In this document: piece by piece, positions 2 to 22,695 of the stretch
How positions within the stretch are numbered: position 1 is the first letter of the stretch
Layout of the letters: each line of letters begins with the position of its first letter
From: Fodinicola acaciae
GTDB lineage: Bacteria; Actinomycetota; Actinomycetes; Mycobacteriales; HKI-0501
NCBI RefSeq assembly: GCF_010993745.1
Contig: NZ_WOTN01000004.1
Span: 1,178,001 to 1,242,000, forward strand
Direction of reading: 5' to 3'
DNA: 64,000 nt
Translations under genes and position numbers: made by a program
The notes under the pieces: model-generated
Database searches by the model: none
Seen by the model: only the letters and a program-made list of their open reading frames with translations
What the model was told of the DNA's origin: nothing

Positions 2-3000
2 CTGCTCGCTCCCATTCCTGGCCATGTCAAGAAGCGTGGCGAGGCGCTGAAGATGTTGCTGGGAGAGGTGGTAGAGCGAGCCTACGTTGACGCCAAGGCC
101 GGTCTTGGCGACGATGCTATATGGGTACTCACCGCTGGTGCATTGGTCGGGCTGATTACTAGCTCACCCGACGATTACTCTCGTGCAACCGCAATGACCG
201 GCATCAGACGGCAGGAAAATAAGACCAAAAGAAAAGAACTGGCTGGTGAATGGTTTGATATAAGCCGCCGGCGACTTGACGAAAAATTGTGTCTTCGCGC
301 CTTCGTACGCGCCATCGATGCATTCACCGAAGACGACGAAGCCATGGAAGGATTTAGACGGCGGCTCAGCGTATCTGTCGAGCCACAGCGACCGCGGGAT
401 TCCGTTGCGCCTGTCGCAGAAGAGTCTCCAAAACCGCAGGCTGACAGGCCGCAATACCAGGCCGTTGCCAAGTTTCCGCCACTACCAGCATTCGATACGG
501 CGTTTGTTGATCGTCCTGCAATCGAGGAACGCTACAACACACTATTGGATGACGGCACACAGCTCGTGGCATTTGTTGGTGAGCCTGGCAATGGAAAGTC
601 GCGACTTGCGCAAGAGTTGACCGTCAGGCGTGCGGGTAGGAACGGTTCGCTGCTCTTCCTGAATGGCGGCCAGATTATGAGTCAGATGGCGGGTCTGTTA
701 GCGCAGAACGGCGTCGTGTCCGGATACGATCTGACTGCCGAGCAGATTACGCTAGCCTTTGCTGCGTACCTCTCGTCGCCCACCGCGCCAGATTTTGTGG
801 TTCTTGACGACATTGCTAACCGCGGTTTGCTAGAAGCACTCGCGCCTCCGACCGTGAAGCCAACGGTGGTCGTCACCAGTCGCACTAACGTATTGCCGCC
901 GGGACGGGGCGAGTCCATCGTCGTACGGGAAATGGAAGACGACGAAGCCGTGCAGATGGTGCGCAACCTGGGCGGCCCTGCAAGGCTCTCAGAGGTCAGG
1001 AGAATTGTCGACGCGCTTGGCGCTAGGCCGCTTGCTATCGAACACGCTTGTACCGGACTGTTGGCTGGCGGTTACATGACGGTCAAGCAGTTCTGCGAAG
1101 CACTCCAGCACGACGTCGGAACTACCCTGAAGAAGGCTCAGAGTGCCGAAGATGTCGATAAGACACTGACATGGATCTACGAACAGATCCTCACCCGGCT
1201 CCGCAGTCTTGATGCGGATGCTGCAAAGCTGCTTGAACTAGCAGCATTCGTAGCTCCTACCGCTATTCCTGAACCGCTATTGCAAGCAGCCTTCAGCTCA
1301 TGCCGTGATGCCGAGAACGACGCGGAGATAGCAGTCGCCTTTCAAGCAGCCCAACGTGACTTGCAGTCGTACTATCTGATCAACCGGAGCATCGTGCAAG
1401 ACGGCGTTGATCGGCCTGATAGCGGCCGTCAATCCTGGTTCCGGCCTGTTCACCGAGCAGTCTTCTCTATGCATTCACTGACGCAAGAACTCCTACGTTC
1501 AATCCTGACGAAGGAGGGCCGCAGCACTGAACTCTGCCTTAAGTTGCATGGGTCTCTCGGAGCGCAGCTAGCGTCAAATCCGCGGAAAGAATACTTTGAT
1601 CCTGACAGTATTTCTGACGAGGACATGCACTGGTTGCCTCACGCATACATGCTTGCCAGTGGGCTGCACGGCAGCGCCGACGACGTGTATCAGGAGGTCG
1701 GCTTTGGGGCGACGCTCGCCTTCTTGATCAAGGGAGCGCTTCAAAACGGCGACCCAGAAATGGCGTCGCAGGCGTCTAAACTGTATCCAGGACTAGGTGA
1801 CCAGCAAACGTGGCAGCGAGCGCCATATATGTACGAGGCGTACGTTGAATATTTGAAGATGCAGTACCATATGTCTGCGCTTCAAAGCAGTGAGTTCGCT
1901 CGGGCGATAGCGCACGTCAATGTTATCTGCGGCGCAAAATCTGATGTTCCTGGGAAGCTGAACCCGCCTCGGCCAATACGACTCTTAGAATGGATTGAGG
2001 CCGTCGTTGATGATGGTCGGTACACGGACGCCCTGGAGCTTTCCGAGGTATTCGATGAAATATACCGCCCGTCGGGCAGCGTTCCGAACATCGTTTTGGT
2101 CAGACGTGTGATGCTCCTTTCGGAAATCTACGTGGCGCAGTGCCGGTGGTCCGACGCGGAGGCGGCGCTAGCGGCAGCCCATTGGACCTACACGGAACAT
2201 CACCTCGGTAGTTGGGCATATATACGAGAGCAATTTCGCCTCTTTATCGCTGACTTGGAATATTGCCATATCAGTGGGCAACCAGACCGTGCGAGCACTG
2301 TCGAATCTTATGCGGATCAACGATGGGCATCCAAGGCAAACGACTACTACGATTGCCTCACTGAAGGCCGCTACTACTACGTCAAGGCACGGTGCGCGGT
2401 CGTAGTGGCGACGCGTTTTTACGTCGAGCACAGGCCGGACAGTGGGTACGAGGCAGCATATGCCGAACGGCTCAATGGCCTACTCAAGATAGCCTATTCT
2501 TACATAGACCGGTGCAGGGCCGCCTACACCAAGGTCGGGAGATTTCGACAGACCTACGAACTGTACGCGGATATGGTTCTCTGTTACTTCTTGGTCGGCT
2601 CCGGTGAGGCGTTCAAGGTCGGTCGCCGGATCATAGACGAATGGTATGAGAGAGATCATCTGCGCATGCTCCATCGGGGTACATGGCGCGCTCAGGCGAG
2701 ATTTGCCTTACTAGCCGAGCGTATGCGGATAATGACTACATCGCTCTCAAGAGATCCTGCAATTGTAGTCAACTGGAAGCGACAGAATGAATTTCTGGCG
2801 GAAGCGTTGGGTATTCGCCTAGGGTCCCCGTACCTCTACGCGGAATTCTTGGGCATTAGCAGCATCTATGATCAACTGCGTGGCCAGCCGCACTCGGGGA
2901 AGCTTAGAGAAATCGTGGCGACCTATCGGTCGATTGGCCGCCTCGATAGGTGGGAGGCGCTTGCTGAGGCATTGGCTAGCCTTCCGCAGGATAGAACTAC

Positions 3001-3037
3001 CTATCTGAAGAAGATGCGTTATCTTCTCTTGCCCTAA
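2..3037 (+). CDS. STAND/NB-ARC ATPase with helical-repeat C-terminus (5' end outside window)
   Basis: The frame is open to the window edge, so the protein probably starts upstream; the first in-window ATG is at 53 and numbering is from it. A Walker A motif GEPGNGKS lies at about 177-184, a Walker B FVVLDD at about 247-252, an NB-ARC-type VVTSR strand end at about 273-277 and a GARPLAIE segment near 325 equivalent to the GLPLAL motif. This order is typical of STAND ATPases, which are signal-gated switches. The roughly 120 residues before the ATPase should be the effector or adaptor domain but are not recognised. Residues 390-994 are helical and probably TPR-like, the sensor part. Two small membrane-protein genes follow. 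The A/T-rich codon use differs from the core chromosome. ATPase call firm; role in defence inferred. Confidence 0.8.
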   Translation: MLAPIPGHVKKRGEALKMLLGEVVERAYVDAKAGLGDDAIWVLTAGALVGLITSSPDDYSRATAMTGIRRQENKTKRKELAGEWFDISRRRLDEKLCLRAFVRAIDAFTEDDEAMEGFRRRLSVSVEPQRPRDSVAPVAEESPKPQADRPQYQAVAKFPPLPAFDTAFVDRPAIEERYNTLLDDGTQLVAFVGEPGNGKSRLAQELTVRRAGRNGSLLFLNGGQIMSQMAGLLAQNGVVSGYDLTAEQITLAFAAYLSSPTAPDFVVLDDIANRGLLEALAPPTVKPTVVVTSRTNVLPPGRGESIVVREMEDDEAVQMVRNLGGPARLSEVRRIVDALGARPLAIEHACTGLLAGGYMTVKQFCEALQHDVGTTLKKAQSAEDVDKTLTWIYEQILTRLRSLDADAAKLLELAAFVAPTAIPEPLLQAAFSSCRDAENDAEIAVAFQAAQRDLQSYYLINRSIVQDGVDRPDSGRQSWFRPVHRAVFSMHSLTQELLRSILTKEGRSTELCLKLHGSLGAQLASNPRKEYFDPDSISDEDMHWLPHAYMLASGLHGSADDVYQEVGFGATLAFLIKGALQNGDPEMASQASKLYPGLGDQQTWQRAPYMYEAYVEYLKMQYHMSALQSSEFARAIAHVNVICGAKSDVPGKLNPPRPIRLLEWIEAVVDDGRYTDALELSEVFDEIYRPSGSVPNIVLVRRVMLLSEIYVAQCRWSDAEAALAAAHWTYTEHHLGSWAYIREQFRLFIADLEYCHISGQPDRASTVESYADQRWASKANDYYDCLTEGRYYYVKARCAVVVATRFYVEHRPDSGYEAAYAERLNGLLKIAYSYIDRCRAAYTKVGRFRQTYELYADMVLCYFLVGSGEAFKVGRRIIDEWYERDHLRMLHRGTWRAQARFALLAERMRIMTTSLSRDPAIVVNWKRQNEFLAEALGIRLGSPYLYAEFLGISSIYDQLRGQPHSGKLREIVATYRSIGRLDRWEALAEALASLPQDRTTYLKKMRYLLLP

Positions 3038-4214: not shown

Positions 4215-4871
4215 CTAGTTGTCACCTTGGCAACGATCAAATGCCTCAAGCCGCGCCACAATACGTTCAGCGAGCTGTTCCGCAGTCTGCCCGCGCCACC
4301 TGACCACTTCCTGTGGCCAGCCACGAGCTTCCAAAAACTCGCATGCTTCGCCGTACAGCCGCAGTTCACGCTCGGCCGCCTGGATCGCTTCTGGGCGGGA
4401 CAATCGCGTTGCCCCGACACGCTGCAACGCGATGGCCTCGGCTCCTCGCCGCAGATAGACCGACAGGTCCGGTTGCCGGACGTGCCGGTTGTAACTCCAG
4501 GTTTCGGCCACTGACAACCCGGCAAACTGCTCCAGAACCAGCGACGACTGTATGTACCCGTTGGACACAACCCAGGCGCCCCGTTCCAGGGCTGGTACAA
4601 CCTCGTTCGCCAAGTTTGCGTACCGACCAGCTGCCAGGTGTAGCGCCACAGCCCTGCTGTGCAGTCGAGATTTCTCCGCGTACGGCAACCGGCCCCATCC
4701 CATGTTGGAGGGGTCGGTAACAGCCTGCACCGTCTGGCCACGCAACCGCAGCAGCTCGGCCAGCGTGGCACAGACCGATCCGGTGCCTGCGCCACGCGGC
4801 CCGACCACCACAACGAACAAGCCGGACTGGCCGGTCTCGACCGTTTCCGTACCAACTACTGAAGCTGTCAT
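4215..4871 (-). CDS. thymidylate-kinase-like P-loop protein with altered Walker A
   Basis: A 218-residue protein with the layout of thymidylate kinases: a P-loop strand (VVVVG), DPSNMGWGR at about 53-61 in the place of the dTMP-binding loop, SNGYIQSSLVLEQ at about 103-115 resembling the DRY-x2-SS region, and a C-terminal LID/helix part. The P-loop reads GPRGAGTG (24-31), where the family needs GxxGxGK[ST], so the catalytic lysine is missing, and the DR of DRY is replaced by SN. It may be an inactive binding protein or have unusual chemistry. It is the last gene of a ten-gene leftward operon and follows a 145-base gap holding competing hairpins. Confidence 0.6.
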   Translation of the reverse strand: MTASVVGTETVETGQSGLFVVVVGPRGAGTGSVCATLAELLRLRGQTVQAVTDPSNMGWGRLPYAEKSRLHSRAVALHLAAGRYANLANEVVPALERGAWVVSNGYIQSSLVLEQFAGLSVAETWSYNRHVRQPDLSVYLRRGAEAIALQRVGATRLSRPEAIQAAERELRLYGEACEFLEARGWPQEVVRWRGQTAEQLAERIVARLEAFDRCQGDN

Positions 4872-5016: not shown

Positions 5017-5427
5017 TCAGCCGTCCTGGCCCTCCTTCTCGGGTGCGGCTGAGGCTTCGGGATGCGGCCGAATCCGCGGCAACTGCACCGTGGCCCCCTC
5101 GACCGGGGTAATGGTCACGGTCTTGCCGCCGTCGCTAGTCGGCTCGACTCGCACTCGTGGCTCAGACTGCGGTTGCCGCCGGTGGCTACGCGGCCGTGGC
5201 TTGGTCGTGTCTGGAGGTTGCAGGTCGCGCTTTTCTTCGAAGTCCTCCAGCCTGACATTGGCCGCCTGCAACACAATTTGGCCGTTGGCGTGGATGGGAC
5301 AAACCCAGCGGCGGCCACAACGGCGGCAGATAATGCCCCGTTCGCTGCGCACCGGCTGGTGCAGCCGGACGTGCTTGGCGGCCATCTTGACGAGTTCGGA
5401 ATTGGCCTGCACTACCGGCTTAGTCAT
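5017..5427 (-). CDS. small zinc-ribbon-like protein with disordered tail
   Basis: A 136-residue protein. Cysteines and histidine at C34, C37, C43 and H46 (CRRCGRRWVCPIH) look like a metal-binding knuckle; the second half is rich in Pro, Arg, Ser and Glu and is probably disordered. The front part, with RLHQ followed by the CxxC, resembles the CxxC mini-proteins encoded upstream in the same operon, so it may be a derived family member. Its ATG overlaps the stop of the 27-codon membrane peptide gene. No known function. Confidence 0.55.
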   Translation of the reverse strand: MTKPVVQANSELVKMAAKHVRLHQPVRSERGIICRRCGRRWVCPIHANGQIVLQAANVRLEDFEEKRDLQPPDTTKPRPRSHRRQPQSEPRVRVEPTSDGGKTVTITPVEGATVQLPRIRPHPEASAAPEKEGQDG

Positions 5428-5536: not shown

Positions 5537-6226
5537 TTAGGCGGTCGGTTCCGCTGTTGGCTCGTTCGGTGCGTAGCGCTCCAAAAACACGTCGCGGGGC
5601 ATGTGCAGGTGATCCCAGGGATCGTCAGCTGTCAGGGTGTCGGCCCGGTCGTCACACAGGCTGGCCACTGCCCTGTGGCCGTAGACGCGGTACGTATCAG
5701 CGGCCTGTCGCCACAGCACCGCTTCTTCTACAAAAATGTCGGTCAGTTGGACGGCTTCGTGGTGGGAAGCCGGTTTAATACTGGTGAGCCGGTCGCGTTC
5801 CTTGCCCAGCGTGGCCAGCTCAGCATCGAGTCGCCGTTGCCACTGCGTTACCTCGGCTGCCCGCGTACCGAGCGAATACACCAGGCTGCTGCCACCGATC
5901 CAGACCACGCCGACTGCCACCATGGCCGCGGACATCGAGCGGCCCGGCTGGAGGTAGGTCAGCGCCAGACTTGGCGCGAAGACCAAGGCACTGGTGGCTA
6001 CCAGGGCCAGGCCGCCAGGACGGCCCCGTTGCATCCGCTGGAATGCCAGGTAGCTCAAGCCCGCCGTGAGCACCGCGATGGCTGCGGCAACCACAAAGAG
6101 CACCCAGGTGGTCAGCCAGTAATGATCCAAGACCATATGTACGGACTCGAAGGCCAGCGGCAGCAAGGTCAGGGCGATCAGCCATGAGGCCACGCGTTCA
6201 ACAGGTTTTCTCAGTGGCAAGGTCAT
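5537..6226 (-). CDS. membrane protein with cytoplasmic helical tail
   Basis: A 229-residue protein. ATG at 6226 was chosen over an upstream ATG because it overlaps the previous stop (ATGA). Hydrophobic segments lie at about residues 12-30, 38-60, 75-95 and 102-122, followed by a coiled-coil-like stretch (WQRRLDAELATLGKERDRL) and a helical tail containing VEEAVLWRQAADTY. The N-terminal half recalls the DUF2637-type four-helix proteins of actinomycete plasmids and integrative elements, but I am not sure. The tail motif is shared with the neighbouring gene at 6223-6759. Confidence 0.5.
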   Translation of the reverse strand: MTLPLRKPVERVASWLIALTLLPLAFESVHMVLDHYWLTTWVLFVVAAAIAVLTAGLSYLAFQRMQRGRPGGLALVATSALVFAPSLALTYLQPGRSMSAAMVAVGVVWIGGSSLVYSLGTRAAEVTQWQRRLDAELATLGKERDRLTSIKPASHHEAVQLTDIFVEEAVLWRQAADTYRVYGHRAVASLCDDRADTLTADDPWDHLHMPRDVFLERYAPNEPTAEPTA

Positions 6227-6759
6227 GACGGGGAGATTTCCGTTTCCGTGTGTAGGGATGGGTGGCGTCGAGCAGTTGCTCGGAAGCGTGTTGTTCTCAA
6301 GAAATTGGCTAGACACTGGCGTGGCTCAAGAGTGAGCAGGTCATCGGCCCAGCGCTGGCAGGCGTACGCAGCCAGCGGGTCGCCGTGCTGTTCGTAGTAC
6401 CAGGCCGCCAATTCCCAGGCGTCGGCTTCTTCGGTAATGGCCACCTCAAGGCGACGCAGCAACTCAGCCGAAATAGCGTCAACCTCGCCAGCGTCGGTCA
6501 GCACCTTGTCCTGCGTGTTATGGGCACGTTCGACTTCCAGCCAACGCCTGGCGATAAAGCGGTTGCGGGACTGCCCCGTCGACGCGCAGCCGGTGAGGCG
6601 CCACCAAAGTTTGAGCATGGCCCGGACAGCACCGAAACGAACAACCCTGTCTCGCCGGCACCAGCCACACGACGGATGGCTGGTCAGAGCGTCCGTTTCG
6701 GTGCTGCCGTTCTCGACCCGCCGCCGCAGCTTCAGCGGTACGGAGACGGGGAGCTTCAT
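6223..6759 (-). CDS. hypothetical helical protein with CxxC
   Basis: A 178-residue protein starting at ATG 6759, which overlaps the preceding stop (ATGA). The first 60 residues are basic and include CGWC; the rest is helical, with TEEADAWELAAWYYEQHG followed by a region ending in ACQRWADDLLTLEP. The spacing EEAxxW(x2)AAxxY(x3)G...C..R.AD.L is repeated in the tail of the next gene (5537-6226), suggesting a duplicated domain. Product unknown; the operon position implies it works with the CxxC mini-proteins. Confidence 0.5.
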   Translation of the reverse strand: MKLPVSVPLKLRRRVENGSTETDALTSHPSCGWCRRDRVVRFGAVRAMLKLWWRLTGCASTGQSRNRFIARRWLEVERAHNTQDKVLTDAGEVDAISAELLRRLEVAITEEADAWELAAWYYEQHGDPLAAYACQRWADDLLTLEPRQCLANFLRTTRFRATARRHPSLHTETEISPS

Positions 6760-7016
6760 GATGCAACCCGTGCCGGCGTCGCAGTGCCAGCAGTCGCGCC
6801 GGCGACAAGCGCATCGTGGTAATGCTGTTCGTGCTTGACGATGTCGTAGAGCGCCATCCACCGGACTGGCCGCCCACCGCCCACCTCTAGGCCGATAGCG
6901 GTTTGGCCGCAGCGTTCGCAACGACCGGCGAGCAAGTCAACGTGACCCTCAATGATGGCTACGGCACCGACGCGCCAGGGCGTGAAGACCTGGTGACGGT
7001 CGCAGGGGAGCATCAC
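6756..7016 (-). CDS. CxxC mini-protein, tandem family copy 5
   Basis: An 86-residue protein with a C5-H8 pair, then a strand (GHVDLLAG), C33-x2-C36 (CERCGQTAIG) and a helix with W53 and IV..HEQHYH. It aligns best with copy 4 (7013-7282), sharing CERCGQT.IG, the later W and IV...HY. The C-x2-H ... C-x2-C spacing suggests a single zinc site. The start (GTGATG) overlaps the stop of copy 4, and its own stop overlaps the next ATG. No function is known to me. Confidence 0.6.
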   Translation of the reverse strand: MMLPCDRHQVFTPWRVGAVAIIEGHVDLLAGRCERCGQTAIGLEVGGGRPVRWMALYDIVKHEQHYHDALVAGATAGTATPARVAS

Positions 7017-7282
7017 GAGCCAGACTCCACGCTCTGGCTCGGCGTGCCCAGGAATTGGTTGACTACCTCTTGGCGCCGGTAGTGCCGGACCTTGCGGACG
7101 ATCTTGCTAACCGGAATCCATTCCACCGGCAAACGACTATTGGTGTAGACCCCTATGACCGTCTGACCGCAGCGCTCACAAGCCCCGCCCAGCAGCTCGA
7201 CGCGGCCTTCCAGGATGGCCTGCACATGAATGGGAATCGGAACAACCCCGCTGTGGACGCAGTCCACGGTCTCGGCTGCCAT
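7013..7282 (-). CDS. CxxC mini-protein, tandem family copy 4
   Basis: An 89-residue protein with C8-x-H10, the strand GRVELLGGA, C35-x2-C38 (CERCGQTVIG) and a C-terminal helix with VEWIPVSKIV and RHYRR. It is preceded by GTGAAAGG and starts at ATG 7282, 14 bases after copy 3. It shares more identity with copy 5 than with the others, so these two are probably the most recent duplication. Predicted zinc-binding, soluble; role unknown. Confidence 0.6.
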   Translation of the reverse strand: MAAETVDCVHSGVVPIPIHVQAILEGRVELLGGACERCGQTVIGVYTNSRLPVEWIPVSKIVRKVRHYRRQEVVNQFLGTPSQSVESGS

Positions 7283-7296
7283 AGCTAGCCTTTCAC

Positions 7297-7530
7297 TTAG
7301 GAAGACTGGAAAAACATGGAGTGCGGCTCATCCGGCCGGCCAAACAGTTCAATCATGGGTGCCCAGTTGCCTGGCCCAATGCGGTCGCTCAGGCCCCCAA
7401 GCAAGCACTGGCAAAACCAGCAGCGCGCCGCCAGCAGGAACACCTTGCTATCGGCTGGCACCCAGAGCTGGAGGCCAACCCCAGGGACGTAGCGGTCGTA
7501 CGGCTGGTGGTGGCCGTGGCGGCAACGCAT
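7297..7530 (-). CDS. CxxC mini-protein, tandem family copy 3
   Basis: A 77-residue protein. ATG 7530 was preferred over two upstream starts that lie inside the previous gene; GGAG precedes it and the previous stop is 5 bases away. Pattern: C3, H5, H7, then FLLAARC, C37-x2-C40 plus C42 (CWFCQC), GGL, and W56 in NWAPMIELF. Same order as the other copies, with the GRVELL strand replaced by SKVFLL. Unknown function. Confidence 0.55.
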   Translation of the reverse strand: MRCRHGHHQPYDRYVPGVGLQLWVPADSKVFLLAARCWFCQCLLGGLSDRIGPGNWAPMIELFGRPDEPHSMFFQSS

Positions 7531-7535
7531 GAAGG

Positions 7536-7757
7536 TCAGATCTCCGTTCGGCCGCATTGCAGCACGTTCGACATGGCCTGCCACTCGCCGATCTGTTCCG
7601 GCGCTTCACGCTGGCCAAGGCCCAACAAGGTGGCACCGCAGCGCTGACACGTGGCTCCGATGAGTTCGACGCGGACGCCACTGACCCACGTACAGAGCCC
7701 GAGGCCGGGCAGATAGAAGCCGCTGGGCCGGTGCTCCCGACTGGCGCAGGTGTGCAT
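7536..7757 (-). CDS. CxxC mini-protein, tandem family copy 2
   Basis: A 73-residue protein with C4-x4-H9, strand VRVELIGAT, C37-x2-C40 (CQRCGATLLG), and a C-terminal GEWQAMSNVL equivalent to the W-containing helix of the other copies. ATG 7757 is one base after the stop of copy 1. The alternating strand-CxxC-strand-helix pattern looks like a zinc ribbon or treble clef. No function known. Confidence 0.6.
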   Translation of the reverse strand: MHTCASREHRPSGFYLPGLGLCTWVSGVRVELIGATCQRCGATLLGLGQREAPEQIGEWQAMSNVLQCGRTEI

Positions 7758-7758
7758 G

Positions 7759-7956
7759 TCAGATCAGGGAGTTCGTCGAGGGCGGCAGCTTGCGGCAGAT
7801 GTACTCGGCGACCGTCTCCCAGTCCGCGGTGCTGGTGCCTTCCGGGCGACACAGCATGCGGCCGCAACGTACGCAGCGGGCCAAGGTCAAGGTTTCGTGC
7901 GGTCGGCAGATGGCGCCAAGGCTCCTACCGGCCAGGTGCGTATGCGCTCTGTACAT
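7759..7956 (-). CDS. CxxC mini-protein, tandem family copy 1 (first gene of operon)
   Basis: A 66-residue protein if the ATG at 7956 is used; a GTG at 7977 would add seven residues. It has H5 and H7, C17-x2-H20, strand ETLTLA, C28-x2-C31 (CVRCGRM) and DWETVAEYICRK matching the W-helix of the paralogues. It is the promoter-proximal gene of the operon, divergent from the Scr1-type regulator with about 190 bases between. Confidence 0.5.
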   Translation of the reverse strand: MYRAHTHLAGRSLGAICRPHETLTLARCVRCGRMLCRPEGTSTADWETVAEYICRKLPPSTNSLI

Positions 7957-8058
7957 CGCGGTCCGCCTCTCTGTCACCGTCGCAGTTGATAGTGAAGCAG
8001 ATGAAGTTTCATTTCCGCAATGGCGGCGTAAGGTAACTACGCGGACGAAGGGGCTAGT

Positions 8059-8127
8059 GCGCGTGTATCACTTGACGGGCGTCGCGCGGGGCTGTTTCAT
8101 CTTGGAAACGTAAGCGCGTATCATTTT
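8059..8127 (+). promoter_or_regulatory. promoter and direct repeats before the Scr1-type regulator
   Basis: TTGACG (8072-8077), a 17-base spacer and TTTCAT (8095-8100) form a plausible -35/-10 pair for the gene at 8148. Two near-copies of GCGCGT(GT)ATCA-TT at 8059-8073 and 8114-8127 flank it and could be an operator for the XRE protein itself. The same interval may also control the leftward operon. Confidence 0.45.
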
Positions 8128-8147
8128 GGAACACCGGAGGTAATCAG

Positions 8148-9011
8148 ATGCGTACTGAAGAAGGCGGCACGGTGCCGATGCGCCAGCTCGGCCGCGAGCT
8201 GCGTCGCCTCCGGGAAGCGTCACCGCTGACCATTGAAGAAGTCTTCGAGCACATGGAGTGGTCACGGCAGAAGGTCTGGCGCGTCGAGCGCGGCGACACC
8301 AGAGCGTCATCCGTTGAGGTCGAAGCGCTGTGTCGGCTGTTCGGTGCCGACGAGCGTACGACCGAAGGCTTGGTCGCCCTGGCGAAGGCCGCCAAGACCA
8401 AGGGGTGGTACTACGCCTATGGAGATGTGATTCCGGAATGGTTTGAGCTGTATGTCGGCTTGGAGACGGCCGCGACCAGCTTGCAGGAGTACAGCGCCGA
8501 ACTGATCCCTGGCCCGCTTCAGACGGCCGACTATGCCCGTGCCCTGTTGCGCTTCGCAGCCAACGGTGGCGAACGCGAAGTTGAACGCAAGGTCGAGCTG
8601 CGGGTGGCCCGCAAGCAGCGATTAACCGTTGCCCCGGATGCGTTGCGGGTCGATTACGTTGTCAGCGAGACCGCAATCCGGCGGCCGACTGGCGGCCAGG
8701 CGGTCATGACCGAGCAGTTGCGGGAACTGCTAAAGCTCAGCGAGCTGGACAACGTGAGCATCCGAATTTTGCCGCAGTCGGTCGGCATCTACGGGGCCAT
8801 GATCGGCAGTTTCGCGATACTCACTTTCCCCGCAGAGACCGAACCTGACACGGTGTACGTCGAGGCACTGACCGGTGCCTTGTACTTGGTAAAGCCGAAA
8901 GAGCTGGCGGCCTATCGGCAGGAGTTCGAGAGCCTGCGCTCGGTTGCCCTCGATCGGGGGAAGTCACGCGACTTCCTGACCTCCGCAGTGAAGGATTTGA
9001 GCAGTGGATAA
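8148..9011 (+). CDS. XRE-family regulator with DUF5753 (Scr1 type)
   Basis: A 287-residue protein, ribosome-binding site CCGGAGG 7 bases before ATG. An N-terminal HTH (about 12-66: RELRRLREASPLTIEEV ... WRVERG) is followed by the DUF5753 domain, recognised by YxGLE-like and LIPGPLQTADYARAL segments and by NVSIRILPQSVGIY near residue 210. Such proteins are numerous in actinomycetes, pair with DUF397 proteins and regulate neighbouring genes. The downstream DUF397 gene overlaps by 8 bases, the standard arrangement. It probably controls itself and possibly the divergent CxxC operon. Confidence 0.92.
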   Translation: MRTEEGGTVPMRQLGRELRRLREASPLTIEEVFEHMEWSRQKVWRVERGDTRASSVEVEALCRLFGADERTTEGLVALAKAAKTKGWYYAYGDVIPEWFELYVGLETAATSLQEYSAELIPGPLQTADYARALLRFAANGGEREVERKVELRVARKQRLTVAPDALRVDYVVSETAIRRPTGGQAVMTEQLRELLKLSELDNVSIRILPQSVGIYGAMIGSFAILTFPAETEPDTVYVEALTGALYLVKPKELAAYRQEFESLRSVALDRGKSRDFLTSAVKDLSSG

Positions 9012-9198
9012 CCAGATCCAGCCCGTCTGGCGCACAAGCAGCTATTCAGGCGGTAATGGTGGCACCTGTGTGGAAGTGGCCGCGAACGTGCCAGATGTGA
9101 CCCTTGTTCGCGACAGCACGCTTGGGGAGGCGTCGCCCGTCCTGGTCTTCACACCAGCCCAGTGGGCAACCTTCCTCGACACGATCAAGGCCAACTAA
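9004..9198 (+). CDS. DUF397 protein, partner of the Scr1-type regulator
   Basis: A 64-residue protein starting GTG at 9004, inside the end of the regulator gene. Diagnostic pattern: WRTSSYSGGNGGTCVEVA, V.VRDST, then FTPAQWATFLDTIK. DUF397 proteins accompany XRE/DUF5753 regulators and are thought to modulate them in a toxin-antitoxin-like or signalling pair. Followed by a clear terminator at 9221-9250. Confidence 0.92.
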   Translation: MDNQIQPVWRTSSYSGGNGGTCVEVAANVPDVTLVRDSTLGEASPVLVFTPAQWATFLDTIKAN

Positions 9199-9220
9199 CC
9201 ACGCGCGTACTCCCAGACGA

Positions 9221-9250
9221 CCCCACCATGCAACGGGCTTGGTGGGGTTT
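9221..9250 (+). terminator. rho-independent terminator after DUF397 gene
   Basis: CCCCACC (9221-9227) and GGTGGGG (9241-9247) form a perfect 7-bp stem with a 13-base loop, followed by TTT. It lies just after the DUF397 stop. An ATG at 9228 inside the loop is therefore rejected as the start of the next gene. Confidence 0.65.
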
Positions 9251-9305
9251 GCGCTGTTTTCGAAGTTGTAACCCTACGCACTATCTTGATGGCACACTGC
9301 TAACC

Positions 9306-9854
9306 ATGATCTTCGAGCCGGACGACATCGCGAGGCTCCAGCGCATCACCAAGCGCGGCAAAGACCACCTCCAGGCACCGGAACGCCAAGACTGGGCCAG
9401 GCGGTGTTCGAGCGACCTGCAAGAGCACGTCCCGTGGGTCTGGTCAGAACGGCGGCAGGCATGGATACAGAAGACGTGCATGAGTGCCATGGTGCTGACT
9501 GACGCGGCTGGCGTGGAGCACCGGATGGTGATGGCCAGCGCTCGCGGCGTGATCCCCAAGGAGGTCATGCCGTACCTCAAGGCATGGGGTGCCACGGTCG
9601 TACCCAAGGATGGCGAGCGCAAGCACGCCGAGATCCGAGGTGTGGACTACGTCGAGGAGATCGGCGGCACGCTGCATGCCATTGGGGCCGGGCTGGATGT
9701 CTGCGATCCGTGCGACGACCGGGTTCGTTCCAAAGGCATCCGGCCCAGTACGTTGACGCAACGCGACCGAGCAGCCAACCGCGGCACGATAGCCGGACTG
9801 ACACCGGGCTACCGGACACCTGACCAGGGACCAAAGAAGGGACCACGCAAGTGA
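9306..9854 (+). CDS. deaminase-fold protein (HAE...CxxC), putative
   Basis: A 182-residue protein starting at ATG 9306. The second half carries H107-A-E109 and, 24 residues after E109, C133-D-P-C136. A HxE motif with a CxxC about 25 residues later is the zinc and proton-shuttle signature of the cytidine deaminase superfamily, including bacterial nucleic-acid-targeting deaminase toxins. Strands (VEHRMVMASA, GATVVPK, YVEEIGGTLHAIGAGLDV) lie where expected. The N-terminal 60 residues are basic and Trp-rich and the C-terminal tail is basic, compatible with nucleic-acid binding. The stop overlaps the next start (GTGA), so the partner is made with it. Subfamily unknown; the motif match alone could be coincidence. 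Confidence 0.5.
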   Translation: MIFEPDDIARLQRITKRGKDHLQAPERQDWARRCSSDLQEHVPWVWSERRQAWIQKTCMSAMVLTDAAGVEHRMVMASARGVIPKEVMPYLKAWGATVVPKDGERKHAEIRGVDYVEEIGGTLHAIGAGLDVCDPCDDRVRSKGIRPSTLTQRDRAANRGTIAGLTPGYRTPDQGPKKGPRK

Positions 9855-10282
9855 GCAACAACCGCCTTGAGCTGGTGTCGGCCGATCTCTGGAAGCAGCT
9901 CGCCGCTGCGGGAGAGTTCAAGCAGCACCAGGTGGCCGAAGGGGTGTTTGCCATGGCTCTTGAAGGCTGCCACGTCGCACCCGAGATCGTTGAGAGTGTG
10001 CGTCGAGCTGTCTACGGACAGCAGACCGGCGATACACCCATGCGCCAGTGGTTGAAGCAGATGGCCGACCAGGCGACGGCTGCCGAGCTGGACGCCGAAG
10101 AGCTCGACGACGACAAGACTGCTGCGGATCTGCACTGGCGAGCTGCGCGCCTGTACGAGGTGGCGTACTGGGTACTCGATCCTGACCGGGCTGAGGGTGC
10201 GGGCGAGGCGACGTACGAAGCAGCGCAGTTGCTTGATGAGGGCACGGTGTTGAGACGGGTACGCCAGGTCTTGGCAAGCTAA
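9851..10282 (+). CDS. hypothetical protein coupled to the deaminase-like gene
   Basis: A 143-residue, helical, acidic protein. The GTG start at 9851 overlaps the stop of the deaminase-like gene by 4 bases. Notable parts are an AAELDAEELDDDKTAADL acidic stretch near the middle and a final helical segment. There is no recognised family. Acidity and tight coupling to a candidate enzyme acting on nucleic acid would fit an immunity or regulatory partner, but this is inference only. Confidence 0.55.
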   Translation: MSNNRLELVSADLWKQLAAAGEFKQHQVAEGVFAMALEGCHVAPEIVESVRRAVYGQQTGDTPMRQWLKQMADQATAAELDAEELDDDKTAADLHWRAARLYEVAYWVLDPDRAEGAGEATYEAAQLLDEGTVLRRVRQVLAS

Positions 10283-10312: not shown

Positions 10313-11209
10313 TCACGTCAACGGTTGTACTGACTGATCGCGCATGAAGGCGTATCGATGCTTTGCCGTCTGCTTGTTGCCAACGCCGCGGAACTCACCT
10401 CTGGGTGACGCTTGCACGATCAAGTGCTTGGTCACACGTTCGCCGTTTATTCGTTGTTGAATATCGAACTCAAGATGCCACTCGATATAGCCTGTGCCGT
10501 TGTGCGGGATAGCCACGATGGCGTACGACTGGTTTGGCTCCACTCTGACGTTCCGAATAGAAAAGTATGACCGTTGCGCCTGCTTCTGCTCAAAATCGCT
10601 CGTGAATTCGCATGGAGTGTTTTGGTCGCAGATAAAGTGAGCCGGGGAATAGTTTCTGCTCAGGTCGAAGAGGAGGCTGGCTGCCCCGCCATCTCCACCA
10701 AGAGAGTGGTCAACAAGTGAGGCCGCAAAGGTACGCGTCTCACGTCTTGTTATGCGCGCATACCCAGCCGTAATAATGATTGGCTGGCTTTGCGGATTGA
10801 AGAAGGTAACCTTAACAGCGCCCACTGTCGGCAGGCCGCCAAGACGTCCCATCGCGCGCGAGCGCACCGTTAAGCTTTCTTCGGGGGACTTCTCTGGCTG
10901 CCGAAAATCGGCCTGCATCGCAGCCTGCATCTGAGCACGACTCGGCTCAATCGGAAAGAAGTACGGGTCGCTCAATGACGCATCAGCCGAATACATAATG
11001 TCGTCCTCGGTGAGGTCATTAACCTTTTGGCCAACGATTGTGGCCACGACTCCCATTGCGAGTGCCGTCAAGTTCGTGACGATCCAAGCACCGACTAGTA
11101 ACAGTACCTTTTTAGTGCGCTTCTTTGGGTCTGTTGCCTCTGACTCACCTGGAGGCACCTGTGATGCTGGCGATTCGTCGTCTCCCGTGCTTGGTTGTTC
11201 GTCGACCAT
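10313..11209 (-). CDS. membrane-anchored hypothetical protein
   Basis: A 298-residue protein; ATG 11209 was chosen because GGAGGAG sits 9 bases upstream. Residues 1-33 are disordered and end in KKRTKK; one transmembrane helix follows at about 34-58 (VLLLVGAWIVTNLTALAMGVVATIVG). The remaining 240 residues form a mainly beta, presumably extracytoplasmic domain with C217 and C222 close together (CDQNTPC), possibly a disulfide. Convergent with the 9851-10282 gene. No family recognised; the base composition is that of the accessory region. Confidence 0.6.
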   Translation of the reverse strand: MVDEQPSTGDDESPASQVPPGESEATDPKKRTKKVLLLVGAWIVTNLTALAMGVVATIVGQKVNDLTEDDIMYSADASLSDPYFFPIEPSRAQMQAAMQADFRQPEKSPEESLTVRSRAMGRLGGLPTVGAVKVTFFNPQSQPIIITAGYARITRRETRTFAASLVDHSLGGDGGAASLLFDLSRNYSPAHFICDQNTPCEFTSDFEQKQAQRSYFSIRNVRVEPNQSYAIVAIPHNGTGYIEWHLEFDIQQRINGERVTKHLIVQASPRGEFRGVGNKQTAKHRYAFMRDQSVQPLT

Positions 11210-11608
11210 GGTGATTCTTCTCCTCCGGGTCAAGGGTCTATACGTCGCTCGCCAGTTTGTCGAGGAGGAACCTGCTGAACAGGGCATGTCGCACCTCGGT
11301 CAAGTAGCCAGTATTGAGGAGCATCCGTCGGCGGTCGCGCGCGTCTGGGGATGGTCGCATCATCGGCGGCTAACGCTGTCCAGCCGGATGAGCTCCGCGA
11401 AACTTATTTACGAGGCGTCTTACCTGTCTGGTCTCTACCCGTCACGAGTCCGGGACCTTGGACTCCGGTGGGCTGACTAGTCGGGTCGAATTGAGTCGAT
11501 CTTCAAGTCAACCCTCCGCGACAGAAGCGTGACGGCGAGAAAGCTAGGCCACGTAGACCAGAGGACTGAGCTGGATCAACAGCTCGCACAAGTCGTCAGG
11601 AGCCGATC
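11210..11608. other. intergenic, no gene recognised
   Basis: About 400 bases between two divergent membrane-protein genes. It should contain both promoters. A 64-codon open frame at about 11,285-11,480 on the plus strand has no ribosome-binding site or similarity that I recognise and is not called. Confidence 0.4.
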
Positions 11609-12280
11609 GTGACTTGGGCAGATATCTCGCTCGTGCTCGGCATCGTTCTTGCCGTAGCAGGCATTGCGGCGACAGTGATCTACGGGCGCCGTGCGCTCAG
11701 ACCACCTCAACGACAGCTCCGCTGGAGCTATGAATCGACACGTCTATTCGCGCTACAACATGTAGGTCTAGGCCGCCGGATACGAGTCTCGGTGGGAGAT
11801 AAGGAGGTCCGCGATCCACATTTATTGTTGCTGACATTATCTAACGTCGGTCGTCGTGATGTAGACACAGACGCTTTCGATAAAGAAAGGCCGATCGTAT
11901 TCAAAGTTGTCCGCGAGACCAATACGCCCGAATATAGTGGCTATGGAAAGGAGCCGTCAGAGCCGGTCGCTATGCTGGGTGCCGACTACCGCTATGGCTC
12001 CGCGCAGCCAAGCCTAGAAATCGAAGAATCAAAGATCAAGATTGCCCCTGAGTTACTCAAGGCCAATGAGAGGTGGGCGGCACGCTTGCTAACGAGTGGA
12101 GCATCAGAAATCTACTTAAGCGAAGAGCACCTAATCGACACGACCATCTTTCAGTTGCGACGGCCATCTCCACCGCGCATTTTTAGGAACCCGTGGTGGC
12201 CCACCATAGGACTAGCCCTAACGGGTCTATTGCTCGGCTTTTTGATAAACGAACTGCTACATGCTCTTCGGGTCGTCTAA
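11609..12280 (+). CDS. hypothetical protein with terminal membrane helices
   Basis: A 223-residue protein starting GTG 11609. A helix at about residues 5-26 (ISLVLGIVLAVAGIAATVIYG) and another at about 197-215 bracket a central soluble domain with beta character (LLLLTLSNVGRRDVD, RPIVFKVV). The layout, an N-terminal helix followed by a beta-rich module with an N-x-G turn, recurs in the 197-residue gene at 16530-17123 in the same region. Product unknown. Confidence 0.55.
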   Translation: MTWADISLVLGIVLAVAGIAATVIYGRRALRPPQRQLRWSYESTRLFALQHVGLGRRIRVSVGDKEVRDPHLLLLTLSNVGRRDVDTDAFDKERPIVFKVVRETNTPEYSGYGKEPSEPVAMLGADYRYGSAQPSLEIEESKIKIAPELLKANERWAARLLTSGASEIYLSEEHLIDTTIFQLRRPSPPRIFRNPWWPTIGLALTGLLLGFLINELLHALRVV

Positions 12281-12309
12281 CACGCTTATGCGCGTTCGAC
12301 CTGTTGCGG

Positions 12310-12603
12310 TCATTGCTGTATGCTTATTCGCCGATCAGGCGCAACACGCCAAACCGTAATCTCGCATGGTTTATCCCCGAAGTTCTGGAACTGGTAGAAG
12401 AGGATGTAGACCCTACCGTCTCCGAGTTTGGTCGCATGGTGGGTCACGACGTGCGGCGCATGCTCGCCGTAGTGGATGCTGAACTTCGGCTCAGGATCAG
12501 CCTCTTTATACTCGCCCAGTTCAGCCTTGTGCATGTCATGGGGCTGTATAACGAAGTGGGCGGCGATCATGTCAGCTTCGTCTTGTGTAGCGGTGTAATT
12601 CAT
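12310..12603 (-). CDS. small hypothetical protein
   Basis: A 97-residue protein if the ATG at 12603 is used (another ATG lies two codons upstream). It is histidine-rich (HFVIQPHDMHKAE, HYGEHAPHVVTHHA), then YILFYQFQNFGDKPCEITVWRV. There is no membrane segment and no recognised family. It ends 29 bases from the convergent gene before it. Confidence 0.45.
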   Translation of the reverse strand: MNYTATQDEADMIAAHFVIQPHDMHKAELGEYKEADPEPKFSIHYGEHAPHVVTHHATKLGDGRVYILFYQFQNFGDKPCEITVWRVAPDRRISIQQ

Positions 12604-13012
12604 AAGCAATGGTCTCGATTACGTTGCTGTTTCGAATATCTCGTGCAGTTCTTCTGGAGGTTCCGAACATCTATAGGATCGTCGGGCGGGTCACCTATCT
12701 GGCCTCACCGTGCCGTATCTTGTACGAGCCGGTGGACTTCAAATTGCGACCCAGCTGGCTTATAATGAATGCAGGCGTTTAGCCTACTTGCCTCTGAGGC
12801 GTTCCCTATGCGCTTAGAGGCGTATTACATTTGAGTGAGATGGTATTGAATTACCATCATAGAAATGTTACGGTTGGTAACAGGAACATTATTGTTCGAG
12901 CGAGTTTCGACGCTCAATTTAATGGTACGGTTGGCAGTCGGATCTTGTCAATGGCAAAATAAGTCCTGGGCAGATACATCCCTGTTACGCCTGGGGATAA
13001 AGTGAACTACGC
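12604..13012. other. intergenic with hairpin at 12790-12821
   Basis: About 400 A/T-rich bases between divergent genes. GCCTCTGAGGCG (12790-12801) and CGCTTAGAGGC (12811-12821) can fold into an 11-12 bp stem with one mismatch and a short loop. With no gene immediately upstream on the plus strand it is not an obvious terminator; it could be a leader structure for the gene at 13013. Confidence 0.4.
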
Positions 13013-19315: not shown

Positions 19316-20635
19316 CTATCCCCGCGCATCAAATACCAGCACCCTGCCGCTATCCGCATCAATGACGTGCAGTCCTTGGTTCCATTCTTCGGCAACGCCC
19401 GTGGTATCGAGCTTGACGTACCGACGTAGATCTTCCGGTATGACTGCCAAGGCTTGCTCCAGCTCCGTGTAGAAGCCAGTTTCACTGAGGATGTACTCGA
19501 CGTAGCCCTCCAGCGAGTCGTACTCGCCCTCAAAGTGATCTTGGAAGGCTTCATCGGTCAATAGCTCCTCGTCGGTCTCACCCACGTATCCAACCCAGTG
19601 GGCGAACGCCTCGCCATGGGTTGCGATACCGCGGGCGATGCGACTCACTGCGGCGAACGAGGCGTACTCGTCCAGCTCAAAACCGCAGAAGTCACTGTGA
19701 TCCAGGATTGCCCATTCTTCGGCATCAGCGTGGTAGCCGTTGCGGAGGATGAACTGCACCGCGTCATGCAGCTCGTCAGGTTCGAGGGTGGCATCGAGCC
19801 AGGCTCCGTGCAGCTCACCGTCGTTGTAGTCGCTCAGTGAACCGACCCAGACTTGCGGTGTGTGGCCGCTGCTGCTGGCTACCTCGCTCCGGCTCGTGGT
19901 GGCCTGCTCAAAGGCGTCGTACTGGCGCTCAAGAGTTTCCCAGTAGGTGTGGAGTTCGTCGTCGGAGTCGGTCTCCCAGGAGTGGCGCTGTCCGTAGTTG
20001 TTCTGCCCGATCACGTAGCCGCCGGTACGGTCCTGGTGGCGGATGAGGCGGAACCACCCCATGGTCGGCATGCTCAGACCGTCGTCAGCCTCCAGGAGGA
20101 AGAGGTCGTCCAGATCGGATGTGGCTTCGTCCTCGACATCGTCGGGTCGCCACCGGCTGGCATCTGTCCACGGGAAGGAGTCAACCTCGTCCCTAGCTGG
20201 GTCAATGACCGTGGCCACCTGGCCGAGGGTCGTCACCGCGGCTGCCGAGATGCGCTCAATCAGCTCAGCGCGGTCTTGGGCTTCGGCCAGCTCGACCCAA
20301 TCGGCTACGGCGGCCTTGCTCGGTCGGTTCAGGCAGTAGGCGCCAAGCCAGTTGACCCACCACTGCACACGGGGCTCCAGGTCGTCATAGCCGGCAGTGA
20401 GTTCGTTGTGGATAGCCTCGGAGATTGCGCCAGTCGAAGCCAGGCTGTACATAGCCGAGGCTTGCCCCTCGTGTAGTTGAGAGGCAATGTAGCGGGCCGT
20501 ACGGTCGTCTATCTCGTTGCTGTCACGTAAGGCCCGACCGATGCCTTCACGGATGACCCGTTCGTCGTAGCCTTCGTCGGGTGGGATGGCGGTTAGGTAG
20601 TCGTGTTCACCTCCTGGTGTTGGTGTTCGTTCCAT
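19316..20635 (-). CDS. ArdA-type antirestriction protein with long N-terminal extension
   Basis: A 439-residue protein, ribosome-binding site TAGGAGG before ATG 20635. From about residue 250 it follows ArdA: WVGSLSDYNDGELHGAWLD, a middle part with DHSDFCGFELDEY, FAHWVG near residue 346, and EDFxDHFEGEYDSLEGYVEY. ArdA proteins are acidic DNA mimics that block type I restriction and are carried by conjugative elements. The C-terminal third is strongly acidic as expected. The first 250 residues are also acidic and do not belong to ArdA as I know it; typical ArdA is about 165-180 residues. Confidence 0.75.
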   Translation of the reverse strand: MERTPTPGGEHDYLTAIPPDEGYDERVIREGIGRALRDSNEIDDRTARYIASQLHEGQASAMYSLASTGAISEAIHNELTAGYDDLEPRVQWWVNWLGAYCLNRPSKAAVADWVELAEAQDRAELIERISAAAVTTLGQVATVIDPARDEVDSFPWTDASRWRPDDVEDEATSDLDDLFLLEADDGLSMPTMGWFRLIRHQDRTGGYVIGQNNYGQRHSWETDSDDELHTYWETLERQYDAFEQATTSRSEVASSSGHTPQVWVGSLSDYNDGELHGAWLDATLEPDELHDAVQFILRNGYHADAEEWAILDHSDFCGFELDEYASFAAVSRIARGIATHGEAFAHWVGYVGETDEELLTDEAFQDHFEGEYDSLEGYVEYILSETGFYTELEQALAVIPEDLRRYVKLDTTGVAEEWNQGLHVIDADSGRVLVFDARG

Positions 20636-21315: not shown

Positions 21316-22695
21316 TTAGCGGTTCGGCAAATTGACGGCAAAATTGACGGCAACGCAGCCTAACAACCACTGCCATCGACGCTCATTTGACAACAAATTG
21401 ACCTCTGTAAATCGTCCAGTTTCACCCTTCGGGAATGTCCTGAAGAGCCTTGTGTCCCCAGTTCGAGTCTGGGAGGAGCCACCACTGTTATTTGTGGTAT
21501 TGCCAACAACGATTTGATGCCTCTGCCGGTAGAATTGCCGGCAACGTACGCTGCCAGTGCCACGCGCAAACAACCGGCCCTCGACCATTTCGAGGGCTTT
21601 TTGTTTGCTGTCTAAGTCAACGTGCTGGTAGATGCCAGTCGTCCGAATGTCACCATGTCCCAAGATGGCTTGGATGTCACGGGCATGCACATCCAGATTC
21701 TTCTGCGCGGTCGCATTGCTGTGTCGTAGTCCATGCAACGTGATACGTCGCAACCCATGCTGCTGCTTGCAGATCCGCAGGAACGACCGAGCCAGATTAT
21801 GCGACTCAAGCGGCCGGCCCGTCCGCGTCGTAAAGACCAGTTCGTCGTCACGGCCAGTGCCTTGCCAATCGGGTCCAACCTCGGCCCGACACACGGCTTG
21901 AGCCGCACGTTGCTGTAGCAGGGCCGCACGTGCTGTTGCCAACAACGGTTCATCCCGTTCACTGGAGTCGGTTTTGAGTTCGACTTGGCGCAGCTGGCCA
22001 CCTATGCGTTGTATCTGCTGGCGGATACGGAGGATGGCGCGGTCAAAGTCCACGTCGCACCACCTGAGACCAAGCACCTCACCGCGGCGTAGGCCGTACA
22101 GTGCCAGCAGCACGAAGGCAGGAAAGAGAGGATCAGGACGAGCAGCTTCGAGAAAGCGGCTTGTCTCGTCAGGTGTCCAATAGGCGGCTTCTCCTGGTCG
22201 ATAGCGGGGCAGCTCAACCAGCCGGGCGACGTTGCGCAGCAGTAATTCCTGGCGCATAGCGTAGGTCAAAGCCGCGCTCAGCACCTTACGTATCTGATGA
22301 ATTGTGGCAATGCTGGTTCCGGTCGCATGCAGCTTGTCGAAAAATTCCTGCACGATCCGTACTGTCAGGCCATCGAGTCGATAACGCCCAAGACCTGGGT
22401 TGAGGTAGAGACGGGAAATCGACTCATGTCGTTGTCGGGTGAGTGGTCGGCGCTTTTCCCGCTCCAGCCAGTAGTTCAGGTAAGAGCCCACTTTCCAGCC
22501 TCGCTCAGCCAGCAAGATCCCTTGTCGAGCTGCCTCTACCTTCTTGTCGAGCTTGTCACGAGCTTCTTGTCGTGTTCGGCCGTAGACGCGGATTCTTTCC
22601 CGGATACCGTTCGACAGAAGTAGGGTCATGGCGGCTTCGTAGCGGCCATCTGCCCGCTTGGAGATTGATCCCTCCCCGTTTGCTCGTCGTGCCAT
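21316..22695 (-). CDS. int: tyrosine site-specific integrase
   Basis: A 459-residue frame. Residues 1-60 form the arm-binding N-terminus (GEGSISKRADGRYEA), followed by a SAM-like core-binding domain and the catalytic domain with RRGEVLGLRW (first Arg), ITLHGLRH (His and second Arg) and GIYQHV with the nucleophile Tyr near 356. The natural C-terminus is probably near residue 390; the last 70 residues read through the tRNA-derived core and repeats. The ATG overlaps the TAA of the excisionase-like gene (TAATG). It integrates an element at a tRNA gene. Confidence 0.9.
   Translation of the reverse strand: MARRANGEGSISKRADGRYEAAMTLLLSNGIRERIRVYGRTRQEARDKLDKKVEAARQGILLAERGWKVGSYLNYWLEREKRRPLTRQRHESISRLYLNPGLGRYRLDGLTVRIVQEFFDKLHATGTSIATIHQIRKVLSAALTYAMRQELLLRNVARLVELPRYRPGEAAYWTPDETSRFLEAARPDPLFPAFVLLALYGLRRGEVLGLRWCDVDFDRAILRIRQQIQRIGGQLRQVELKTDSSERDEPLLATARAALLQQRAAQAVCRAEVGPDWQGTGRDDELVFTTRTGRPLESHNLARSFLRICKQQHGLRRITLHGLRHSNATAQKNLDVHARDIQAILGHGDIRTTGIYQHVDLDSKQKALEMVEGRLFARGTGSVRCRQFYRQRHQIVVGNTTNNSGGSSQTRTGDTRLFRTFPKGETGRFTEVNLLSNERRWQWLLGCVAVNFAVNLPNR
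21330..21544. other. attachment-site region: tRNA 3'-end core flanked by arm-type repeats
   Basis: The core at 21451-21484 is the 3' end of a tRNA: T-stem CCCAG (21457-21461), loop TTCGAGT, stem CTGGG (21469-21473), AGGAGCC, A, CCA. No matching 5' half (GGCTCCT...) lies to the left, so it is a carried fragment; I could not assign the isotype. On the left are two perfect tandem 12-mers AATTGACGGCAA (21330-21341, 21342-21353) and a partial third near 21396. On the right is AATTGCCGGCAA (21533-21544, 11 of 12). Repeats of the same type on both sides of a core is the layout of attP. The integrase reading frame runs through the whole site. Confidence 0.65.

Follow-up and report, generated by a model that had tools for sequence, protein, structure and literature searches.

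The targets of loci that encode WhiJ-type regulators with BldB-type (DUF397) partners are a long-standing question. In the literature covered, the only outputs are abaA paralogs and iosA of Streptomyces venezuelae. WhiJ9 of this species recognises three direct repeats in the gap that separates whiJ9 from its divergent neighbour iosA. In a bldB mutant, iosA is activated only if WhiJ9 is present, and WhiJ9 seems to be self-repressing (PMC10294661). BldB itself shows no DNA binding but forms hetero-oligomers with its DUF397 paralogs, and the median is 19 BldB paralogs per bldB-containing actinobacterial genome (PMC10294661). The usual neighbours of WhiJ are small SCO4542-like and anti-sigma-like genes (PMC4255298). 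Pairs of XRE and DUF397 genes have been called type II toxin-antitoxin (TA) systems (PMC2701414, PMC7159879). No TA behaviour is reported for 14 XRE/DUF397 pairs of Streptomyces coelicolor (PMC10364602). Here we describe a locus of Fodinicola acaciae in which a WhiJ-type regulator gene and a DUF397 gene stand beside a tandem array of five genes for Cys/His mini-proteins. The locus lies in 64,000 nucleotides of contig NZ_WOTN01000004.1 (positions 1,178,001 to 1,242,000; assembly GCF_010993745.1), and this whole stretch is called the window.

The locus resembles iosA-whiJ9-bldB9 (PMC10294661). In both, a gene for a small cytoplasmic protein is transcribed away from a WhiJ-type XRE gene that has DUF397 beside it, and direct repeats lie in the gap. 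S. venezuelae has one basic 15-kDa IosA (isoelectric point 10.3, novel structure), whereas the window has five Cys/His mini-proteins. The WhiJ9 repeat is CGXXCTCAAC, whereas that of the window is ARRTGAWAC; CGXXCTCAAC is absent from the four array gaps examined. The abaA/whiJ/bldB-type clusters of Streptomyces also combine a WhiJ-type regulator, DUF397 and a variable third gene. Their usual third gene encodes an AbaA-like anti-sigma protein (HATPase), whereas here there are tandem mini-proteins without a Pfam match above cut-off. The predicted XRE-DUF397 TA pairs (PMC2701414) contain the same regulator-DUF397 pair, and the mini-proteins are not DUF397 by Pfam. No description of these mini-proteins was found in the literature covered on DUF397, DUF5753, WhiJ and Fodinicola genomes, a scope that mostly excludes subscription papers.

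A regulated output operon is the most economical reading because the layout of the window is the same as that of iosA-whiJ9-bldB9. By this analogy we think it somewhat probable that an output operon under the adjacent WhiJ-type regulator and its DUF397 partner begins with the array, and that the mini-proteins are distinct subunits or adaptors.

The array and its constant neighbour

The array, the regulator pair and the candidate operator are as follows.
6756–7013, minus strand: g5, mini-protein of 85 amino acids, same subfamily as the single-copy form
7013–7282, minus strand: g4, mini-protein of 89 amino acids
7297–7530, minus strand: g3, mini-protein of 77 amino acids, best kept between loci
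7536–7757, minus strand: g2, mini-protein of 73 amino acids
7759–7956, minus strand: g1, mini-protein of 65 amino acids, the most divergent member
8006–8126, minus strand: four same-strand 9-bp direct repeats ARRTGAWAC, with 5' ends at 8126, 8102, 8073 and 8014; candidate operator
8148–9011, plus strand: WhiJ-type regulator with XRE helix-turn-helix (HTH) and DUF5753 domains, transcribed away from the array (HTH_31 E 2.5e-15, DUF5753 E 2.3e-51)
9004–9198, plus strand: DUF397 (BldB-type) small protein, overlapping the end of the regulator (Pfam E 2e-19)

An earlier note on this DNA had described a tandem array of five tightly spaced or overlapping genes, and the coordinates, gaps and homology bear it out. 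The spacing from g1 to g4 is 1, 5 and 14 bp, and the start of g5 overlaps the stop codon of g4. A purine-rich Shine-Dalgarno-like stretch lies upstream of the g1 ATG at 7956, and there is an alternative GTG start at 7977. The strict plan C-x1-4-H...L...C-x2-C...W is found in four of the five (g2 to g5). Its frequency in residue shuffles (20,000 per protein) was 0.00005–0.00165. The plan that the note gave to all five thus holds for g2 to g5. In g1 the C/H pair (C-x2-H) is displaced and lies close before C-x2-C.

By phmmer and blastp, g4 and g5 are related at E about 1e-14, and g2 and g3 at E about 1e-7. Profile comparison joined g2/g3 to g4/g5 at E 6.9e-8 with a probability of 95%. The weakest link is g1, which reached E 4.2e-5 and 70% against g4/g5, and E 5.2e-4 and 31% against g2/g3. 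To judge from these comparisons, g1 to g5 are diverged paralogs. None of them has a Pfam or NCBIfam family above cut-off, or a match in PADLOC (E ≤ 0.01) or PHROG (E ≤ 0.1). The roles once suggested for them, as antitoxins or anti-defence factors, gain no direct support from these databases.

An XRE-DUF5753 gene lies within 1 kb of mini-protein genes at all six loci known to carry them, and a DUF397 gene is present at all six. This pairing is the key fact that the earlier reading lacked. The other five loci are labelled L010 to L014 and are described below. DUF5753 was called by Pfam at the window, L010, L011, L012 and L013, and at L014 by the match G001:C23:61422-61955. DUF397 was called by Pfam at the window and L014 (E 7.9e-20), and by a local five-sequence profile at L010, L011, L012 and L013 (L013 E 5.6e-17); four of the five profile sequences (L049, L054, L058, L060) come from own-genome loci on which it was scored. 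The regulator is directly divergent from the array, across a gap of about 140–190 bp, at the window, L010 and L011. At L013 it is divergent and about 0.9 kb away. L012 and L014 carry the regulator, DUF397 and then the mini-protein gene on one strand, with Methyltransf_19 nearby too.

The source genome has 33 DUF5753 matches in about 30 genes, and 4 of the 30 fetched loci have mini-proteins. All four own-genome mini-protein loci fall inside the 1.3% of the DNA around these genes, a co-location expected by chance at about 3e-8 if the loci were independent, which they are not fully. The other 26 own-genome DUF5753 loci had no mini-protein by profile, and look-alike motif frames at three of them were judged spurious. 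The family was found at none of 29 DUF5753 loci from other genomes (hmmsearch E ≤ 5), which are top-scoring matches and not a random draw; two motif look-alikes there were judged unrelated by eye. The local profile found DUF397 at 28/29 foreign and 23/30 own-genome DUF5753 loci. DUF5753/DUF397 pairs are therefore ordinary, and the mini-proteins are, as far as sampled, an add-on.

Copies, selection and distribution

The source genome is 8.86 Mb in four contigs, and the comparison genome (G001) is Fodinicola feengrottensis HKI 0501. Besides the window, the source genome holds two more arrays (L010 and L011) and one single copy (L012). L010 contains g1 to g4. L011 contains g1, g2, g3 and a g5-type gene. 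In F. feengrottensis, g1-, g3- and g5-like genes that are more diverged form an array of three (L013), and there is one single copy (L014). The idea of tandem diversification of a tiny Cys/His protein is supported by these further arrays. Copy number does vary, as the note had proposed to check, with 5, 4, 4, 3, 1 and 1 genes by locus. By eye, L012 and L014 have flanking genes in common, with extra DNA in L014. From the gene lists, the single-copy form looks as if it occupies a syntenic site in the two species.

DNA identity between the window and L010 is 81% over 909 bp (g1 to g4). Between the window and L011 it is 82% over 602 bp (g1 to g3). The inter-locus alignment ends inside g1, on the regulator side. 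The order of g1, g2 and g3 is kept across the window, L010 and L011, with 63–97% amino acid identity. The g3 proteins of the window and L010 are 97% identical, and their ratio of nonsynonymous to synonymous substitution rates (dN/dS) is 0.03. For g1 to g4 copies at these three loci, dN/dS is 0.03–0.40. For g5-type copies it is 0.11–0.56, with dS partly saturated and excluding the window-L011 pair, which was not computable. Purifying selection on the mini-proteins is clear. They look like real genes because dN/dS is 0.03–0.40. The genes g1, g2 and g3 look like distinct required parts because their order, identity and purifying selection are kept at the three loci. The proposal that the copies are interchangeable is weakened by this conservation, yet L013 has only g1-, g3- and g5-like genes.

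With about 14–20 candidates scored per genome (about 14 in the class sample), the searches of class, order and phylum could miss distant members. At E ≤ 0.001 the family was found in 1 of 394 genomes of the class sample, which was the source genome itself; F. feengrottensis was not among the matches. In the order sample there were 2 of 249, both Fodinicola, and 12 more genomes matched at E 0.003–0.085. The g2/g3 profile found 1 of 296 in the phylum sample, with 3 more at E 0.0018–0.0083. Mini-proteins were present in 2 of 3 genomes of the taxonomic-family sample. Among genome contigs, F. feengrottensis was the sole match. No match was found among plasmids (queried with g3, g4, g5 and the 9210–9854 protein, not with g1 or g2), phages (g4 only) or viral contigs (the g4/g5 alignment and g3). 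Tandem homologues were found within Fodinicola, and no relative outside it at E ≤ 0.001 in the sampled genomes. As far as sampled, the family is a Fodinicola addition to some DUF5753/DUF397 pairs.

Fifteen weak hits were inspected over their matched stretches, and in our judgement none is a member. C-x2-C was present in 7/15, and most were long frames that look like chance. Two of them (L036, E 0.016; L040, E 0.030) align over just 22–31 residues with part of a longer protein, which has two C-x2-C pairs and which we take to be a DUF35-type ribbon. Another (L107, E 0.0018) is g3-like over 50 residues but lacks C-x2-C.

Candidate operator, predicted function and alternatives

The repeats sit in the 170-bp divergent gap (7978–8147) between the regulator and the array. 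Counting both strands, ARRTGAWAC occurs five times in the whole window, and four of these copies are in the gap. A pair spaced 24 bp apart (≤1 mismatch) occurs once in the 8.86 Mb, at this gap; a control pattern gave 0. With 1 mismatch in 9 bp, the 3-copy count was reached in 0/60 shuffles. The repeats are a candidate operator of the WhiJ-type regulator. If they are its operator, the regulator at 8148–9011 would be dedicated to this site.

By analogy with iosA-whiJ9-bldB9 of S. venezuelae, the regulator would bind the repeats, repress itself and activate the divergent operon. The DUF397 protein would restrain it until a signal arrives. The proteins g1 to g5 may each have a separate part to play, as small subunits or adaptors that are co-translated and have no catalytic role. 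Together with the downstream-encoded proteins, they could fill the target slot held in Streptomyces by AbaA-like anti-sigma proteins or IosA. A bolder form of this proposal, which we regard as possible but doubtful, is that they are Fodinicola-specific zinc-ribbon subunits. Like BldB paralogs, these would assemble with each other, here into a hetero-oligomer that regulates development or stress in place of the anti-sigma and IosA outputs known in Streptomyces, and the regulator/operator end would change independently of the conserved mini-protein cassette. The locus is compact, has a distinctive repeat cluster and ordered tiny genes, and recurs within one genome in natural copy-number variants; it would be a directly testable new type of output.

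Each mini-protein may bind one zinc. The sequences suggest a site in which the C/H pair near the N-terminus joins the C-x2-C knuckle. Two Cys/His pairs fit for one zinc (C-x1-4-H and C-x2-C) are present in 4/5 window members, and the C-x2-H of g1 is displaced. AlphaFold models of g3 and g4, both built from the same six sequences, are of low confidence (mean predicted local distance difference test score, pLDDT, 68.1 and 64.8). The g3 model is four-stranded. The two models agree in strand order; strands flank the C-x2-C turn and a short strand lies at the Trp. The Trp-bearing helix of the earlier note did not appear in them, and a helix after the Trp is seen in g3 only (5 residues). As a check for a shared zinc site, the models agree in strand order, but pLDDT values of 65 and 68 do not suffice to establish either the fold or the site. 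Zinc ribbons and knuckles (PCF11 finger, TniQ zinc region) have, like the mini-proteins, C-x2-C after L-L-x-x-x-C, then G/T and Trp, with an N-terminal C/H pair. DUF35-type ribbons are presumably a further comparison. The mini-proteins differ from these folds in having no significant profile or structural match. The best profile matches to solved structures were at E 0.16–0.19, and ribbon-type matches in the genomes span 22–31 residues.

Several observations weigh against a regulated output operon of zinc-binding subunits. With 2 mismatches in 10 bp, the 4-copy count was reached in 1/60 shuffles, and for 12-bp words the gap was unexceptional (matched by 14/60). Because the motif was taken from the very 170 bp on which it was scored, the statistics favour it. 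No direct repeats clearly above shuffles were found at the other three array loci. The fold search with both low-confidence models gave no PDB match at E ≤ 0.001. At L013, L012 and L014 the nearest mini-protein gene is 0.9–1 kb from the regulator, with room for intervening genes. At L010 the HTH and DUF5753 regions are in different overlapping frames (6506–7375 and 6525–7082) beside an intact array; this regulator gene looks frame-broken or misassembled. Regulators are 29–38% identical between loci, against 81–97% for g2/g3 (window, L010, L011), so regulator and mini-proteins have not diverged in step.

The last of these points, with the lack of standout repeats at 3/4 array loci, would also suit homologous small zinc proteins that hitchhike by duplication beside WhiJ-type loci and are functionally unconnected with the regulator. 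Since the arrays share a common descent, the 6/6 adjacency does not count as six independent events. The neighbour is nevertheless kept in two different gene arrangements, and the window repeats fall in the promoter region between the two divergent units; we consider hitchhiking rather unlikely. The mini-proteins could instead be toxins or antitoxins, or additional subunits of antitoxin-like kind, of an XRE-DUF397 TA system, with tandem copies neutralising variants. They are small and tandem, NB-ARC, KAP, Fic and DUF6119 genes lie around the arrays, and such pairs have been predicted as type II TA (PMC2701414, PMC7159879). The tested S. coelicolor pairs argue otherwise (PMC10364602). So does the retention of g1, g2 and g3 as three distinct orthologs at three loci with no fast diversification, and the mini-proteins match neither PADLOC nor, above cut-off, a Pfam family. 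We find this explanation unlikely.

We give still less weight to an accessory cluster of an integrative conjugative element, of the spread or establishment type, in which small coupled genes and a membrane protein serve plasmid spread. The overlapping small genes and a membrane-like protein would fit it, as would the Replic_Relax, TraD/TrwB-like and serine recombinase genes on the left and the ArdA and tyrosine integrase genes on the right. These left-hand (L002), ArdA and integrase genes have no blastp relatives at L010, L011 or L013 (15–20 kb each). The single-copy site looks syntenic in two species, and no transfer gene was recognised by eye in gene lists in which most genes had no Pfam scan. 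It is just as improbable that the array is a defence or anti-defence accessory cassette, with the mini-proteins as interchangeable adaptors for one downstream effector. Conflict-type neighbours (NB-ARC at 53–3037 and ArdA at 19316–20635) and variable copy number would be expected of one, and alignments between loci cover the mini-protein cassette but leave out the regulator side. The mini-proteins have no PADLOC or PHROG match and, for the phage and viral queries tried, no relatives there. They are ordered orthologs under purifying selection, not interchangeable variants. The regulated output operon remains our preferred reading.

Downstream genes and mobile-element surroundings

The other genes near the array are as follows.
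4215–4871, minus strand: P-loop protein, thymidylate-kinase-like; a protein of the L011 array locus shares 50% identity with it
5017–5427, minus strand: different Cys/His protein with motif C-x2-C-x5-C-x2-H (the proposed sixth member)
5537–6226, minus strand: protein with hydrophobic membrane-like stretches (by eye); its start overlaps the stop of the 6223–6759 gene
6223–6759, minus strand: gene that follows g5 and overlaps its stop with the start codon; it belongs, as a distant member, to a second family, probably helical (by eye)
9210–9854, plus strand: HAE...C-x2-C protein beside the DUF397 gene, with 46% identity at L011 (6008–6586)
9851–10282, plus strand: uncharacterised protein with relatives at L011 (44% identity) and L013

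Translation looks coupled because g5 and the genes at 6223–6759 and 5537–6226 each start on the preceding stop. The second small-protein family is tandem after the mini-proteins, with 4 copies at L010 (3646–5438), 3 at L011 (9787–11241) and one distant copy in the window. The HAE...C-x2-C of the 9210–9854 protein is, we assume, a deaminase-like signature; the protein has no Pfam family above cut-off. The 9851–10282 protein has a weak PADLOC match to BrxA (E 8e-4, 17 bits). Since the genes at 4215–4871, 9210–9854 and 9851–10282 have relatives at L011, the mini-proteins belong to a broader set of genes, modular in make-up, for which there are no family names.

The protein at 5017–5427 had been put forward as a possible sixth member and was rejected. 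Its hhalign probability was 3.2% against g4/g5 and 1.3% against g2/g3, and it had no hmmsearch match to the family to E 10 and no phmmer match to E 1. At L010 and L011 its own relatives are encoded downstream of the array. A short frame related to it (E 4e-5) is found at 23595–23771 of the window, beside the integrase.

Features of mobile or conflict type in the window are as follows.
53–3037, left window edge: NB-ARC protein of 994 amino acids, conflict-type
19316–20635, right of the array: ArdA antirestriction domain protein
21316–22695, right of the array: tyrosine integrase

ArdA and the tyrosine integrase are 11–15 kb right of the array. A region 3–9 kb left of the window (L002) encodes a serine recombinase, Replic_Relax and a TraD/TrwB-like protein. 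In it a tRNA-Lys gene (11160–11235) overlaps the 3' end of the serine recombinase gene (11171–12997), followed by Peptidase_M78, Replic_Relax and the TraD/TrwB-like gene. This arrangement is perhaps the end of an integrated element. The tyrosine integrase gene contains, at its 3' end, a tRNA 3'-end-like stretch (21456–21483), which has no second copy (≤5 mismatches) within the 104 kb examined. As to attachment repeats, no exact direct repeat of at least 22 bp joins the flanks of the array. The region had been called mobile. The integrase, ArdA, serine recombinase, Replic_Relax and TraD/TrwB-like genes within 20 kb agree with this, but the three other array loci have no such relatives and the single-copy site looks syntenic. 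DUF6119 proteins are encoded near two array loci in different species (L011, 15433–16932; L013, 3228–5144).

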